A model generated the notes under the pieces. It made no database searches. It was given only the letters and a program-made list of their open reading frames with translations, and was not told the DNA's origin. The translations under genes were made by a program, and so were the position numbers. A stretch of 64,000 nucleotides of DNA from Variovorax sp. TBS-050B (GTDB taxonomy: Bacteria > Pseudomonadota > Gammaproteobacteria > Burkholderiales > Burkholderiaceae_C): NCBI RefSeq assembly GCF_029893635.1, contig NZ_JARXYR010000002.1, forward strand, positions 3,509,001 to 3,573,000, in the 5' to 3' direction. Below are positions 31,355 to 40,422 of this stretch, piece after piece (the first letter of the stretch is position 1; every line of letters begins with the position of its first letter).

Positions 31355-31696
31355 ATGAAGACCTCGAACATCCTCGCCGCCGCCGCTCTTTCCCTGCTCG
31401 CCGCCGCTGGCGCCCATGCGGAAACCTACGAGGGCGTGCAGCCCCTGACCGCCGGCTACAGCCGCGCCGACGTGGCGCCCCAGGCCGTGGCCGCAGCCCG
31501 TGCCGGTGATGCCTACGGCGAAGCCGCCTCGGCCGCCGTCGCACCGGTGCTCGCCAGCTCGACCGACCGCGCCACCGTGCGCAACGAAGCCGTGGCCGCT
31601 GCCCACGCACCCGGCCAGAACCTCCGCCGCGAAGCCTTCGCCGGCAGCGTGATCCCCGAGCAGGCACGCAGCTTCACGCGCCAGGCCGGCCTGTAA
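31355..31696 (+). CDS. Small alanine-rich exported protein, 113 residues
   Basis: Function not recognised. A clear signal peptide (MKTSNILAAAALSLLAAAGA, HA, cleavage before ETYEGVQPL about residue 23) leads into an Ala/Arg-rich sequence with two similar units, VAPQAVAAARAGDAYGEAAS and ATVRNEAVAAAHAPGQNLRR. No cysteines. ATG 31355 follows AAGAAGGAACCTGAA. It is monocistronic: own AT-rich promoter region, and a very strong terminator downstream at 31759. Such proteins occur in several copies in Comamonadaceae, with undefined role. Confidence 0.82.
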   Translation: MKTSNILAAAALSLLAAAGAHAETYEGVQPLTAGYSRADVAPQAVAAARAGDAYGEAASAAVAPVLASSTDRATVRNEAVAAAHAPGQNLRREAFAGSVIPEQARSFTRQAGL

Positions 31697-31804: not shown

Positions 31805-31906
31805 GGCGCGTCCGCGCGGCGTTACCGGTGGTTTCCTCGCGCAGGCGCGATGCCGGGCTTCCGGGGAGGGGCCGGTGTAGACTGCCGGGTTTTTCGTTCA
31901 GGCGGT

Positions 31907-32638
31907 ATGGCGCAAGTTTCACAGCGCACAGGTTTCAGCCACTCGGCGCTCGTTCGCTTGCTCCAGGGCCTCGCCGGCACCGAGCTTCGCGCGCCCCGGC
32001 AGGCCTCCGCGGACCAGTTGAGCCAATGGTTCGGCTGGACCGACGCCATCTCGCTGTCGGCAGCGCTCGACGGCAATGCCGCCGCGCCCGCCGGCGGGCG
32101 GCTGCGACCGGCCGAGGCCGAAGCGCGCGAATGCCTGCGGGTGCGCAGCGCGCTCGCCAAAGCCATCGCCGAGGACGGCGCCTGGCAGGGCGGCAAGGAA
32201 GCCCCGGCCGCGGTGGCGGATTTCGCGCCCTACCGCCGGCGCTACCTCGCCCAGCAACAGGCGCTCGATGCCGCGGTGGGTTCGCTGCGCGGCCGGCTGC
32301 GCGCGGTGCTCGCGGGCCGGTCGCCCGCGATGGCGCGGCTCGCGGCGGTGGACGTGGTGATGGAGCAGGTGCTCGCGGCGCGCGAACGCAGCTTCCTCGC
32401 GTCCGTGCCCGGCATGCTCGAAAAGCATTTCGGCCGTCTGCGGACGGCCGGGGCGGAGGCGCCCGGCGACGCCGGGGAGGGCGGGGAGGCTGGGGAAGGC
32501 GGCCAGTCCGGCGCCTGGCTCGAGGTCTTCCACGGGGATATCCGGAACGTGCTGCTCGCCGAACTGGACTTTCGATTTCAACCGGTCGAGGGGCTGCTCG
32601 AAGCCCTTCGCATGAGGCCACCAGGGTGCCATGAATAG
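31907..32638 (+). CDS. DUF3348 family protein, first gene of a MotAB-like operon
   Basis: 243 residues, cytoplasmic (no signal or membrane segment). The N-terminal RTGFSHSALVRLLQGLAGTE and the C-terminal FHGDIRNVLLAELDFRFQPV, EGLLEALRM blocks are those I associate with DUF3348; between them are helical segments (PYRRRYLAQQQALDAAVGSL) and a Gly/Glu-rich linker near residue 185-205. Function unknown. ATG 31907 is chosen because the 65 upstream in-frame codons run through the terminator region. It overlaps the DUF802 gene by 8 bp, indicating coupled translation with the membrane channel subunit. Confidence 0.8.
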   Translation: MAQVSQRTGFSHSALVRLLQGLAGTELRAPRQASADQLSQWFGWTDAISLSAALDGNAAAPAGGRLRPAEAEARECLRVRSALAKAIAEDGAWQGGKEAPAAVADFAPYRRRYLAQQQALDAAVGSLRGRLRAVLAGRSPAMARLAAVDVVMEQVLAARERSFLASVPGMLEKHFGRLRTAGAEAPGDAGEGGEAGEGGQSGAWLEVFHGDIRNVLLAELDFRFQPVEGLLEALRMRPPGCHE

Positions 32639-34727
32639 ATTTCTTCACTACGCTGTTTTCGCCGCCGGCCTGGCCGTGGTGGGCTGGGTCGGCGCCGGAT
32701 ACGCCGGTTCGCACCCGCTCGCCTTCGCCGTCACCGTGCTCGTGGGCGCGTTCTACGTCGTCGGCGCGTTCGAACTGCACCGCTTCCGGCAGGCGACCGC
32801 CACGCTCTCGCGCGCAGTGGACGACCTCGCCGCCGCGCCCGCCGACCTCGCAGGCTGGCTCGGCGGCCTGCATCCGTCGCTGCGCAACGCGGTGCGCCTG
32901 CGCATCGAAGGAGAGCGCGTCGGCCTGCCGGCGCCGGTCCTCGCACCGTACCTGGCGGGCCTGCTGGTGCTCCTCGGCATGCTGGGCACCTTCATGGGGA
33001 TGGTGGTCACGCTCAACGGCACCGGCCTGGCGCTCGACAGCGCGGCCGACCTGGCATCGATCCGCGCCTCGCTGTCCGCGCCGGTGAAGGGCCTGGGGCT
33101 GGCGTTCGGCACCTCGGTGGCGGGCGTGGCGGCTTCCGCGGCGCTGGGCCTGGCCTCGGCGCTGTGCCGGCGCGAGCGGCTGCAGGCCGGGCAGATGCTC
33201 GACAGCCGCATCGCCACCACGCTGCGCAGCTACTCGCGTGCGCACCAGCGCGAGGCCTCGTTCCAGCTGCTCGAGCAGCAGGCGCGGCTGATGCCGCAGC
33301 TGGTCGAACAGATGCAGGCCCTGATGACCGCGCTGGAGCGGCAGGGGCAGGCGCTCGGCGAACGCCTCGTCGCGGGGCAGTCGCAGTTCCACAGCCAGGC
33401 CGAAGCGGCGTATGCCGGGCTGGCCTCCTCGGTCGACGCATCCCTCAAGCACAGCCTGACCGAAAGCGCGCGCATCGCGGGCGCCACGATCCAGCCGGTG
33501 GTGGAGGCCACCATGGCCGGCATCGCGCGCGAGACCGCCGCCCTGCACGACACCGTCGCGCGCACCGTGCAGCAGCAGCTCGACGGCCTGTCGAGCCGCT
33601 TCGAAGCCGCGACCGCGGGCGTGGCCGAGACCTGGAAGGGCGCCCTGGCCGAGCACCGCGGCAGCTCGCAGGCGCTGGCCTCGGACCTGCGCAGCACGCA
33701 CGAACGCTTTGCCGACACCTTCGCGCAGCGCTCGGCCGCGCTGGTGGAGCAGGTCTCGGCGCGCCTCGGCCAGGCCTCGGAAGAAGTGTCCGGCACCTGG
33801 CACCGCGCGCTCGCCGAGCAGCAGCGCGCGAGCGAGCAGCTGTCGGCCGAAGCGAAGCAGTCGCTGGCCGCCGCCGCCGCCCATGCCGAGGCCCAGGCCG
33901 CGGCGCTGCTGCGCAGCGTGGGCGAGGCGCAGGCCGATCTGCAGGCGCGCATCGCATCGCGCGACGAGGAGCGGCTCGCGGCCTGGACGGCGGCGCTGTC
34001 CGCCACCGCCGCATCGCTCGAACAGCAGTGGCAGCAGGCCGGCGCGCAGGCCGAGCTGCGCCAGCAGCAGCTCTTCGAAACCCTCGCCGAAAGCGCGCGC
34101 GGCATGTCGGCGCAGGCCGAGGACCATGCGAAGACCACCGTGGCCGAGATCGCCAAGCTGCTGCAGGCCGCCGCCGAGGCGCCGCGCGTCGCGGCCGAGG
34201 TGGTGGCGGAACTGCGCCAGAAGCTCTCCGACAGCATGGCGCGCGACAACGCCATGCTCGAGGAGCGCAGCCGCCTGATGGAAACCCTGGGCACGCTGCT
34301 CGATGCGGTCAACCATGCCTCCACCGAGCAGCGCTCCGCGGTCGACGCGCTGGTCGGCGCCTCGGCCGACGTGCTCGAGCGCGTCGGCAGCCGCTTCACC
34401 GAGAAGGTCGAGGCCCAGACCGGCCGCATGGCCGAGGTGGCGGCGCAGATCACCGGCAGCGCGGTCGAGGTCGCGAGCCTGGGCGAGGCCTTCGGCCATG
34501 CGGTGCAGCTGTTCAGCGAATCGAACGACAAGCTGGTGGCGCACCTGCAGCGCGTCGAAGGCGCGCTCGGCAAGTCGATCGCGCGCAGCGACGAGCAGCT
34601 GGCCTACTACGTGGCGCAGGCGCGCGAAGTCATCGACCTGAGCATCATGTCGCAGAAGCAGATCGTCGAAGACCTGCAGCAGATCGCCGGCCGGCAGGCG
34701 GCGGTGGCGGTGGCCGGCGAGGCATGA
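32631..34727 (+). CDS. DUF802 protein: MotA/TolQ/ExbB-like channel subunit with long helical tail
   Basis: 698-residue inner-membrane protein. Four hydrophobic segments: about 6-26, 29-48, 103-128 and 153-178. Segment 3 carries LLGMLGTFMGMVVTLNG (114-130), the G-x-L-G-T-x-x-G signature of TolQ/ExbB/MotA; segment 4 carries GLAFGTSVAGVAASAALGLA with Thr161 in the place of the conserved pore threonine. Residues ~185-698 form one continuous Ala/Gln/Glu-rich helical region, probably a coiled coil several hundred residues long. The start overlaps DUF3348 and the stop overlaps the MotB-like gene by 4 bp. Layout matches Zorya ZorA (channel plus long cytoplasmic tail), but sequence kinship is inference. 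Confidence 0.82.
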   Translation: MNRFLHYAVFAAGLAVVGWVGAGYAGSHPLAFAVTVLVGAFYVVGAFELHRFRQATATLSRAVDDLAAAPADLAGWLGGLHPSLRNAVRLRIEGERVGLPAPVLAPYLAGLLVLLGMLGTFMGMVVTLNGTGLALDSAADLASIRASLSAPVKGLGLAFGTSVAGVAASAALGLASALCRRERLQAGQMLDSRIATTLRSYSRAHQREASFQLLEQQARLMPQLVEQMQALMTALERQGQALGERLVAGQSQFHSQAEAAYAGLASSVDASLKHSLTESARIAGATIQPVVEATMAGIARETAALHDTVARTVQQQLDGLSSRFEAATAGVAETWKGALAEHRGSSQALASDLRSTHERFADTFAQRSAALVEQVSARLGQASEEVSGTWHRALAEQQRASEQLSAEAKQSLAAAAAHAEAQAAALLRSVGEAQADLQARIASRDEERLAAWTAALSATAASLEQQWQQAGAQAELRQQQLFETLAESARGMSAQAEDHAKTTVAEIAKLLQAAAEAPRVAAEVVAELRQKLSDSMARDNAMLEERSRLMETLGTLLDAVNHASTEQRSAVDALVGASADVLERVGSRFTEKVEAQTGRMAEVAAQITGSAVEVASLGEAFGHAVQLFSESNDKLVAHLQRVEGALGKSIARSDEQLAYYVAQAREVIDLSIMSQKQIVEDLQQIAGRQAAVAVAGEA

Positions 34728-35413
34728 CGATGCGCGACGAGATCGACATCGACGCGGGCGCGGATTCGGGCGTGCCGGTCTGGGCGGTCTTCGGCGACCT
34801 GATGTCGGGGCTGGTCGGCGCCTTCGTGCTGATCCTGGTCGGCGCGCTCGGCATGCAGCTCGACCTGGCCGCGAAGCTGCAGGCCGAGGTGCAGCAGCGC
34901 CAGGCCGAGACCCAGCGCCGCGAGGCGCTCGAGAAAGCACTGGCCGGTCCGCTGGCCGCGGGCCGCGTCACGCTCCACAACGGCCGCATCGGCATCAGCG
35001 GCAGCGTGCTGTTCGCCTTCAATTCCGCCGAGCTGCAGCCCGAGGGCCGGCAGGTGCTCCGCAGCCTGGCCGGGCCGGTGGCCGCCTACCTGCGCGGGCG
35101 CGACGAGGTGCTGATGGTCAGCGGCTTCACGGACGACCGCCAGATGCGGCCCTCGCGCGACGGCAACCGGCCGTTCGCCGACAACTGGGAGCTCTCGGCC
35201 CAGCGGGCGCTGACCGTGACGCGCGCGTTGATCGAGGAGGGCGTGCCGTCGGGCTCGGTGTTCGCCGCGGCCTTCGGCGCCGAGCAGCCGGTGGCGTCCA
35301 ACGCCGATGCCGAGGGCCGGGCCCGCAACCGCCGCGTGGAGATGGCGCCCACGCCGCGCCAGTCCAACAACCCGGCCGCCGTTCCCGATGCCGGCACCCG
35401 GCCCCGTGGATAA
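34724..35413 (+). CDS. OmpA/MotB-like peptidoglycan-binding stator partner
   Basis: 229 residues: a short cytoplasmic N-terminus, one membrane helix (VWAVFGDLMSGLVGAFVLIL, then VGALGM; about residues 19-44) with Asp25 in the MotB-type position F-x-D-L-M, a coiled linker (AKLQAEVQQRQAETQRREAL), and a C-terminal OmpA-like domain (SVLFAFNSAELQPEGRQVL to NWELSAQRALTVTRALIEEG and ARNRRVEM) for peptidoglycan binding. This is the expected partner of the upstream MotA-like subunit in a proton- or sodium-driven complex. ATG 34724 overlaps the DUF802 stop; ATG 34730 is an alternative. Confidence 0.88.
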   Translation: MTMRDEIDIDAGADSGVPVWAVFGDLMSGLVGAFVLILVGALGMQLDLAAKLQAEVQQRQAETQRREALEKALAGPLAAGRVTLHNGRIGISGSVLFAFNSAELQPEGRQVLRSLAGPVAAYLRGRDEVLMVSGFTDDRQMRPSRDGNRPFADNWELSAQRALTVTRALIEEGVPSGSVFAAAFGAEQPVASNADAEGRARNRRVEMAPTPRQSNNPAAVPDAGTRPRG

Positions 35414-36062
35414 CGACGGCAGCCCCGCCTTCGATGCGGCGGCCACGCTCGACGCCTGGCGCGCGCGCGGCCAGCACCGGGTCGACCCGGTGCGCTTCCG
35501 CTTCCTCGAAGCGATGGCGCGGCGCGCGGCCGGCCACGGCGGCGCGGCGCGGCAGCTGCTCGACCGGCGGCTCGCGGCGCTGATCGAGGCCTATGGCCGC
35601 GCGATCGAGGACCGCGCCGCGGCACAGTCCGCCGCGCCCGGTGCCGGCGCGCAGGACGGCCGCTCCGAAGGGCTGGCGGCACTGCTCGCCCACATCGCGC
35701 GCCATGCGCCCGCGCCTGCGGCGCAGCCGGCGGCGGGAACCACGCTCCGCGCGGCGCCCGCAGCCGAACTCAAGGCCGTGCGCCTCTTCAAGAGCACCTG
35801 GTCGCGGCTGAGCGCCGACCGGCGGCTCACGCAGTCGCTCGCCAAGGTGCCCGAGAACGCGGGGCCGCTGAACTCGCACCACCTCGTGCACCGCGCGCTG
35901 GTGCTGATGCACGAACTCTCGCCCGAGTACCTGAACCGCTTCATGTCGCACGTCGATGCGCTGCTGTGGCTGGAGCAGATGCAGGGCGGCGGCGGCACCA
36001 CGCCCGCCGCGCCGAACCCGCCGCGCGCCGAGGGCGCGCAGAAGAAGCGCGCGAAGTCCTAG
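35388..36062 (+). CDS. DUF2894 family protein, last gene of the MotAB-like operon
   Basis: 224 residues, soluble. The conserved C-terminal core, ELKAVRLFKSTWSRLSADRR, LTQSLAKVPENAGPLNSHHL, VHRALVLMHELSPEYLNRFM, matches what I recall as DUF2894; an N-terminal helical part (DAWRARGQHRVDPVRFRFLE) and a lysine-rich tail (AEGAQKKRAKS) flank it. Function unknown. Start uncertain: ATG 35388 overlaps the MotB-like gene by 26 bp; GTG 35406 would overlap by 8. Ends 13 bp before the convergent cbpM gene. Confidence 0.8.
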   Translation: MPAPGPVDNDGSPAFDAAATLDAWRARGQHRVDPVRFRFLEAMARRAAGHGGAARQLLDRRLAALIEAYGRAIEDRAAAQSAAPGAGAQDGRSEGLAALLAHIARHAPAPAAQPAAGTTLRAAPAAELKAVRLFKSTWSRLSADRRLTQSLAKVPENAGPLNSHHLVHRALVLMHELSPEYLNRFMSHVDALLWLEQMQGGGGTTPAAPNPPRAEGAQKKRAKS

Positions 36063-36074
36063 CAGCGACGGCTG

Positions 36075-39528: not shown

Positions 39529-40422
39529 ATGACCTCCTTCTCCACCCACCGCCGCACCTTCCTGCTCGCCGCCTCCGCCGTGCCGCTCGCGAGCGCCTGC
39601 ACCGCATGGTCCGCGAAGCTGCCGGGCAGCGGCTCGGCCGAGGCCGAACTGGCCGCACTCGAAAGCGCGGCCGGCGCCCGGCTCGGCGTGGCCGCCCTCG
39701 ACACCGGCAGCGGCGCGCGCGTGAACCACCGCGCCGCCGAGCGCTTCCCGATGTGCAGCACCTTCAAGACCGTGCTGGCCGCGGCCATCCTCGCGCGCAG
39801 TGCCCGCGAGAACGGCCTGCTGGAGCGCCATGTGCGCTATGCCCGCGGCGACCTGCAGCCCAACTCGCCGATCACCGGCAGGCATCTCGACCAGGGCATG
39901 AGCGTGGCCGCGCTCTGCGCCGCGACCATCCAGTACAGCGACAACGCCGCCGCCAACCTGCTGATGAAGATCCTCGGCGGACCGTCGGCGGTGACGGCCT
40001 ATGCGCGTTCGATCGGCGACGGCACCTTCAGGCTCGATCGCTGGGAGACCGAGCTCAACACCGCGATCCCCGGCGATCCGCGCGACACCACCACGCCCGA
40101 GGCGATGGCCGCGACGGTGCAGCGGCTGGTGCTCGGCGACGCGCTCGGCAGCGCGCAGCGCGGGCAGCTGCAGGAATGGCTGCTCGGCAACACCACGAGC
40201 GCCACGCGCATGCGCGCGGGCGTGCCCGCGGGCTGGAAGGTGGGCGACAAGACCGGTGGCGGCGACTACGGCACCAACAACGACGCCGGCGTGCTCTGGC
40301 CGCCCGCGGGGGCGCCCCTGGTGGTGGCCGTGTACCTGACCTTTCCGGCCAAGGACGCGCCGTACCGCAACGACGTCGTCGCCGCGGCCGTGCGCATCGC
40401 GGTCGGTGCGCTGCGCGGTTGA
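39529..40422 (+). CDS. Class A beta-lactamase, probably Tat-exported
   Basis: 297-residue serine beta-lactamase. All active-site motifs are present: Ser77-x-x-Lys80 in MCSTFK (the S70/K73 pair), SDN at 137-139, Glu173 and Asn177 in WETELN (the E166/N170 pair), and KTG at 241-243 followed by GGDYGTNNDAG. A cysteine precedes the nucleophile (the position of C69), as in several carbapenem- or cephalosporin-active enzymes, so spectrum deserves testing. The N-terminus has HRRTFLLAASAVPLASA, a twin-arginine-type signal. No ampR-like regulator is adjacent; chromosomal neighbours suggest an intrinsic gene. Confidence 0.93.
   Translation: MTSFSTHRRTFLLAASAVPLASACTAWSAKLPGSGSAEAELAALESAAGARLGVAALDTGSGARVNHRAAERFPMCSTFKTVLAAAILARSARENGLLERHVRYARGDLQPNSPITGRHLDQGMSVAALCAATIQYSDNAAANLLMKILGGPSAVTAYARSIGDGTFRLDRWETELNTAIPGDPRDTTTPEAMAATVQRLVLGDALGSAQRGQLQEWLLGNTTSATRMRAGVPAGWKVGDKTGGGDYGTNNDAGVLWPPAGAPLVVAVYLTFPAKDAPYRNDVVAAAVRIAVGALRG

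Follow-up and report, generated by a model that had tools for sequence, protein, structure and literature searches.

Zorya systems of types I and II are anti-phage defenses in which a membrane motor hands over to DNA-acting proteins, and peptidoglycan binding, the cytoplasmic tail, and ion flow are described as necessary in both (PMC11890865). A third type was named in 2021, when 6,401 ZorAB-type pairs flanked by genes for DUF3348 (ZorF) and DUF2894 (ZorG) were reported; according to the account given in PMC8565338, the system of Stenotrophomonas nitritireducens DSM 12575 lowered the plating of at least one phage when placed in Escherichia coli. The introduction of a 2025 cryo-electron microscopy paper gives the same definition of type III (PMC11890865). 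Here we analyze a four-gene operon of Variovorax sp. TBS-050B lying in a stretch of 64,000 nucleotides (hereafter the window; contig NZ_JARXYR010000002.1, positions 3,509,001 to 3,573,000) of a 5.5 Mb genome assembled in two contigs. Very probably this locus is a complete, chromosomally encoded Zorya type III system that uses a ZorAB motor against phage; protection from phage is attested for a homologue.

Gene content and identity of the operon

Four intact, overlapping genes of the plus strand, encoding DUF3348, ZorA, ZorB, and DUF2894 proteins, occupy positions 31907-36062 (Table 1). All four products match PADLOC profiles of Zorya type III (E from 4e-78 to 0), including ZorA with the ZorA3 profiles at E=0 and 1124 bits (PDLC00650/00649, both over 1000 bits) and ZorB with ZorB3 (PDLC00651) at 4e-110. 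Since every component of the type is matched at E <= 4e-78, the co-occurrence of the four genes is not due to chance. The gene content is that of the published definition: a type III ZorA, a ZorB with a membrane aspartate and an OmpA domain (PF00691, 4e-20), and DUF3348 and DUF2894 genes flanking the pair. The same order around ZorB was kept, wherever the contig reaches, in the 80 loci fetched with the ZorB protein: DUF3348 was found in 73 (the seven misses are at contig ends) and DUF2894 in 79 (the single miss is also at a contig end). An earlier note on this DNA had described the operon as uncharacterized; the PADLOC matches and the published definition rule this out, and the gene set is one already known, named and phage-tested in 2021. 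PMC11953036 also mentions a Variovorax strain with Zorya III identified by PADLOC.

The names of the accessory genes differ between sources. DUF3348 is ZorF and DUF2894 is ZorG in the pages of PMC8565338 that define the type, where the core pair is also written 'zorBC', and the labels are swapped in the entries of PADLOC-DB 2.0 (DUF2894 is ZorF3, DUF3348 is ZorG3). The domain names are used here.

The gene starts and stops, the motif, and the residue positions given in the earlier note agree with our reading of the frames, except for one overlap length. The overlaps are of 8, 4, and 26 bp, the last being of 8 bp if DUF2894 starts at the alternative GTG at 35406; the range of 18-26 bp proposed before holds at its upper end, and 18 bp fits no in-frame ATG, GTG, or TTG.

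Table 1. Features of the Variovorax Zorya type III locus, in window coordinates (aa, amino acids)
Feature	Positions	Strand	Description
Promoter-like motif TGTAGACTGC-N2-GGTTTTTC	31876..31895	+	11 bp 5' of the DUF3348 start codon
DUF3348 protein	31907..32638	+	243 aa; predicted all-helical; PF11828 2e-79; PADLOC PDLC00658 7.5e-86
ZorA (type III)	32631..34727	+	698 aa; four hydrophobic segments, MotA/TolQ/ExbB-type core, long cytoplasmic tail
ZorA membrane core, residues 108-182	32952..33176	+	GMLGTFMGM and T161; aligned to 8VVN ZorA 146-218
ZorA cytoplasmic tail	33177..34724	+	hydrophobicity repeats with a hendecad period (near 11/3) rather than a heptad one (7/2)
Two DUF802 repeats in the ZorA tail	33588..33911	+	residues 320-372 and about 375-427; PF05650
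ZorB (type III)	34724..35413	+	229 aa; one membrane helix with D25 next to it; OmpA/peptidoglycan-type domain 96-203
DUF2894 protein	35388..36062	+	224 aa; isoelectric point 10.75; predicted helical; PF11445 3e-59; PADLOC PDLC00652 4e-78

The probable ZorA-ZorB motor and its tail

The view of ZorA and ZorB as the two parts of an ion motor like MotAB or ZorAB, with a long tail in the cytoplasm, was supported: the channel segments match a solved ZorA, and the aspartate and the pore threonine have aligned counterparts in the complex to which it belongs. The hydrophobic segments of ZorA cover residues 4-22, 29-47, 108-126, and 157-175; the motif GMLGTFMGM starts at residue 116 and residue 161 is a threonine. 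The fold of the channel segments was checked with a profile of 35 ZorA heads, whose sole significant match in the PDB was ZorA of a type I complex solved by cryo-electron microscopy (8VVN, chain C; E=1.8e-7, the next at 0.4). Counted on the printed alignment, T120 and T161 fall on T158 and T197 of 8VVN; among the 35 sequences T120 is invariant and T161 is kept in at least 90%. ZorB has an aspartate at residue 25, within FGDLM and directly N-terminal to its best membrane segment (26-44), and the motif F-x-D-L-M is present in all 79 ZorB relatives. A profile of 31 ZorB N-termini matches chain B of 8VVN (2.8e-5) and places D25 on D24, a residue called critical in the text on that structure (PMC11890865).

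One could think of a flagellar, Tol, or Ton stator pair that has two accessory genes and nothing to do with Zorya. The periplasmic domain of ZorB is indeed nearest to solved MotB/OmpA domains in a single-sequence search, and PomB chains come next after 8VVN for its N-terminus, with weak alignments (E 0.08 to 0.6). Yet the best match of that N-terminus is the 8VVN complex; the ZorA core profile matches type I Zorya and, at E <= 10, retrieves no chain of MotA, TolQ, or ExbB; the core is followed by a tail of about 516 residues; and the four Zorya III profiles all match. The stator identity was rejected at the profile level, and we regard it as very improbable.

The tail deserves separate attention. 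The earlier note had called it a feature otherwise typical of ZorA: the tail itself stands, but 'otherwise' does not, because the protein is ZorA (ZorA3 model, 1124 bits). The same note had spoken of a DUF802 channel; the 53-position model PF05650 hits residues 320-372 and again a stretch starting 55 residues further on, both times in the tail, which rules out DUF802 as a description of the channel. Hydrophobic residues in the window's tail (241-698) show a power of 11.2 at a period of 3.67 versus 0.5 at 3.5, the maximum of 200 shuffles being 7.8. The averaged spectrum of 73 ZorA tails peaks at 3.66, and the strongest period lies at 3.64-3.67 in 50 of them and at 3.56-3.61 in the other 23. Within the subtype ZorA ranges from 595 to 962 residues (n=73), and the first 240 residues fit 254 alignment columns in 35 of these sequences; the part that varies in length is thus the tail. 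The periodicity also changes along the window's protein, from 3.68 in residues 241-440 to 3.58 in the middle of the tail (441-640; together 33351-34550).

DUF3348, DUF2894 and a proposed effector step

By homology, five ZorA would assemble round two ZorB into a MotAB-like, ion-driven motor of the inner membrane. If the model of types I and II carries over, the OmpA-type domain of ZorB would sense or grip peptidoglycan disturbed by phage entry, ion passage along D25 and the threonines of ZorA would come next, followed by a change of state or a turn of ZorA and its long hendecad tail. The tail of type III might recruit DUF2894 and DUF3348 instead of ZorC/D or ZorE, the former as a docking partner that acts where the phage enters, either on the arriving DNA or on the membrane, and the latter as an adaptor or regulator. 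We infer the assembly, the sensing, the coupling, and the roles of both proteins. In Burkholderia cenocepacia K56-2, the first one or two Zorya III genes are said to change transcription during phage infection, in a passage that does not state the direction (PMC12584637).

AlphaFold2 monomer models, built from alignments of 46 (DUF3348) and 49 (DUF2894) sequences, give eight helices and no strand for DUF3348 (predicted local distance difference test, pLDDT, 82.9; predicted template modeling score, pTM, 0.80) and seven helices of uncertain packing for DUF2894 (pLDDT 77.6, pTM 0.43). No other significant Pfam domain was found in either protein, and Pfam, PADLOC, and the models revealed no nuclease domain. 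The earlier suggestion that these proteins are not nucleases is compatible with this result, which is not a proof. DUF2894 is basic (isoelectric point 10.75; median of 9.84 among 72 relatives, range 5.42-11.75), whereas that of DUF3348 is near neutral.

To which part of the motor these proteins might respond was approached by partial correlations of pairwise distances for 15 pairs, in 63 sequence sets in which each of the four proteins has 170 residues or more. The largest value, 0.49 (0.37 to 0.61 in 60% subsamples), links DUF2894 with the ZorA tail; DUF2894 and the channel head reach 0.17. The second largest links DUF3348 with the ZorA head (0.31); with the tail DUF3348 reaches 0.27. DUF2894 and DUF3348 are the two fastest evolving proteins and together reach only 0.27, so that fast evolution alone does not explain the signal between DUF2894 and the tail. 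We propose DUF2894 as the partner recruited by the tail because it is basic and co-varies most with that part of ZorA; its docking there is a lead from sequence comparison, no more.

A different effector step can be envisaged, in which ZorAB acts as the effector and the part of DUF3348 and DUF2894 is confined to keeping the channel closed or opening it; cells would then stop through depolarization and not through an attack on phage DNA. This abortive ion leak competes with the effector step only. The lack of a detectable nuclease-type domain in the two proteins fits it, as does the slightly stronger signal of DUF3348 with the channel head than with the tail, and in the relevant passage of PMC8565338 the authors propose that ZorF and ZorG regulate ZorAB. 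However, the motors of types I and II pass on to DNA-acting proteins (PMC11890865), and the coupling of DUF2894 is strongest with the tail rather than the channel. We consider the leak possible, if doubtful. Given the system, a tail-recruited DUF2894 with DUF3348 as adaptor has about even chances, and we prefer it to a gated leak.

Distribution, probable movement and relation to known systems

The system is nearly universal in this genus of soil bacteria. Among 101 Variovorax genomes, one per species, DUF3348 was found in 98 (85 of the 87 of good quality) and ZorB passed the cut-off in 96; the five below it comprise the three genomes lacking DUF3348 (G068, G071, and G077) and two fragmented assemblies (G054 and G076). 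Three of the 98 genomes have two partial DUF3348 matches that together make one copy. One further gene, at G055:C112:31532-32140, has an internal stop, the sole such case among the genus matches listed. The single defense control, HsdR of type I restriction, was found in 47 of the 101. Outside the genus the distribution is patchy, with DUF3348 in 87 of 299 genomes and 46 of 141 genera of a family sample and in 8 of 369 genomes of a class sample (the window's own genome counting in both). It was absent from all 50,697 phage records searched, and matches to ZorB turned up in 27 of 72,556 plasmid records, none smaller than 366 kb. As far as we searched the open-licence literature, such near-universality of Zorya III in a genus has not been reported in print.

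In spite of this constancy the operon occupies many sites. We compared 20-kb stretches around it in the window and in 40 well-assembled genomes, chosen from the other 97 genus genomes with DUF3348, and all four genes had open frames in each of the 41. Requiring shared flanks of 1.2 kb, these genomes fall into 19 groups by the upstream and 20 by the downstream flank; varying the threshold within 500-2000 bp and counting in four ways gives 11 to 21 groups, and the loosest setting (300 bp, swapped sides allowed) gives six. As a control, the same kind of single-linkage analysis on the flanks of the core gene CbpA clusters 29 or 30 of 31. The window's operon sits between cbpM and a small alanine-rich open reading frame near prpD, and in all 20 genomes with another site whose cbpA region was fetched, cbpMA is present without an adjoining operon. 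In these 20, the gene tag follows cbpM within 0.7 kb in five (at 16 bp in G049) and lies 1.9-5.5 kb away in ten; it was not found in the fetched cbpM stretch of the remaining five. Of the 11 genomes in which the operon is at the window's site, three have it and about 1.4 kb more between cbpM and tag.

Several observations concern this neighborhood. In the other eight genomes of the window's site (the window included), the stretch fetched around cbpM showed no tag; all eight have a tag-family gene elsewhere, in one case at G000:C2:4043734-4044246. The interval between cbpM and tag (window 36063-36074; L290-L309) is variable within the genus: the window's group has the Zor operon there, one genome has 16 bp, and others have several kb or other small genes (by eye MerR-like, peptidase-like, or NUDIX-like). 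The alanine-rich frame (31355-31696, plus strand) has a signal-like N-terminus and no Pfam match at 1e-3; it lies close to cbpM in all 11 genomes of the window's group and in 16 of the 20 with another site. A gene of the beta-lactamase family lies at 39529-40422 on the plus strand, near pssA and murA (PF13354 3e-43, PF00144 6e-34).

In 18 genomes compared by eye, the promoter-like motif precedes DUF3348 in all, with small differences, and no obvious similarity was seen above the motif or past the DUF2894 stop. Because these genomes share only the motif and the operon, the traveling unit looks like a bare cassette. The motif has a single match in the 5.5 Mb genome at up to two mismatches (none for a reversed-pattern control), and we infer from its form and place that it is a putative promoter.

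Protein distances of Zor and rpoB correlate in 40 genomes (r 0.66, reached by none of 1000 permutations; 0.56 without the two most divergent genomes). In a subset of 30 genomes, rpoB and gyrB correlate at 0.93, and Zor correlates with rpoB at 0.61 and with gyrB at 0.62 (0.42 and 0.48 without the same two). The Zor alignment rejects the species tree by 641 log units, in a test with 1000 replicates of resampled estimated log-likelihoods (RELL), which the program warns are few. The two trees have 10 of 27 groupings in common. Of the 13 Zor groupings with good support, seven recur with support in the species tree and two contradict groupings supported there. Taken with the changes of site, the tree better supports a scenario in which close relatives inherited the operon and deeper branches exchanged it; distortion of the Zor tree by faster protein evolution is less supported.

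These patterns bear on whether the operon is a defense system at all. It might instead be a resident envelope motor of Variovorax, concerned with cell-wall integrity or trafficking, with phage defense as a side effect and the 'Zorya III' label as a matter of homology. Its near-fixation in one copy with open frames, at about twice the frequency of HsdR, the lack of PADLOC matches among 11 window neighbors, the absence of DUF3348 from the phage records, and the confinement of ZorB to very large plasmids would be natural for such a motor. Against it stand the reduced phage plating caused by a homologous system in E. coli (PMC8565338, as far as its account goes), the patchiness outside the genus, the many sites, the discord with the species tree, and a mean divergence of 0.38 for DUF3348 and 0.43 for DUF2894, far above the 0.03 of RpoB. 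A purely resident function is thus unlikely in our judgment, and a chromosomal anti-phage system accounts better for the locus.

Some results nevertheless weigh against this conclusion. Near-universality in the genus and a setting in which none of the 11 neighbors matches PADLOC are unlike typical accessory defense. Pfam retrieves no MotA/ExbB domain in ZorA even at E <= 10, and the NCBIfam ZorA models score below their cut-offs (best 22.9 bits versus 100). Fold searches of the PDB for DUF3348 and DUF2894 gave no significant match and so support no particular activity; the DUF2894 model is poor overall (pTM 0.43), and its distance correlation with the tail may come from shared cytoplasmic rates. 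Phage protection is known from a homologue and not from the window's copy, and Zorya III is not among the systems called transcriptionally active in B. cenocepacia in the portion of PMC12584637 that addresses it. Among the 25 best NCBIfam matches, ZorB passes only PRK09040, a model named hypothetical protein.

A bolder picture would join these elements: a Zorya without a nuclease, indispensable throughout a genus and yet unsettled, exchanged or moved among many sites as a one-copy cassette of promoter and four genes, in which the basic, helical DUF2894 is an effector docked on a rotating tail that binds membrane or the arriving DNA where the phage enters, without cutting. We hold it to be speculative, and would not favor it as a whole. 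With one copy per genome at shifting sites across the genus, Variovorax offers a natural setting in which to ask whether a defense that is near-essential in nature may nevertheless travel.

With MotAB/PomAB, TolQR, and ExbBD the locus has in common the architecture of ion motors, and the OmpA-type domain of ZorB is related to MotB; it differs from them by the tail of about 500 residues of its channel subunit, the accessory genes, and the profile match to ZorA. The ZorA core, pore threonine, and ZorB aspartate align with those of Zorya type I (8VVN, Shewanella). We take the 8QYD entries to represent type I too. The window proteins match the ZorA1/ZorA2 and ZorB1/ZorB2 models more weakly, and share with types I and II (the latter represented by 8VVI, Sulfuricurvum) a peptidoglycan-type domain and a long tail. 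In contrast to these types, no ZorC, ZorD, or ZorE model was among the PADLOC matches of the four proteins at E <= 10 or of the 11 neighbor genes at E <= 0.001. Types I and II bring in proteins that act on DNA; in the two helical proteins of type III no such domain was found. What keeps this known system of interest is its pair of putative effectors and, in one genus, a cassette that is near-universal and yet unsettled. Compared with Zorya type III as described in 2021 and exemplified by S. nitritireducens DSM 12575, the Variovorax locus has all four components in the same arrangement, with no tested difference.

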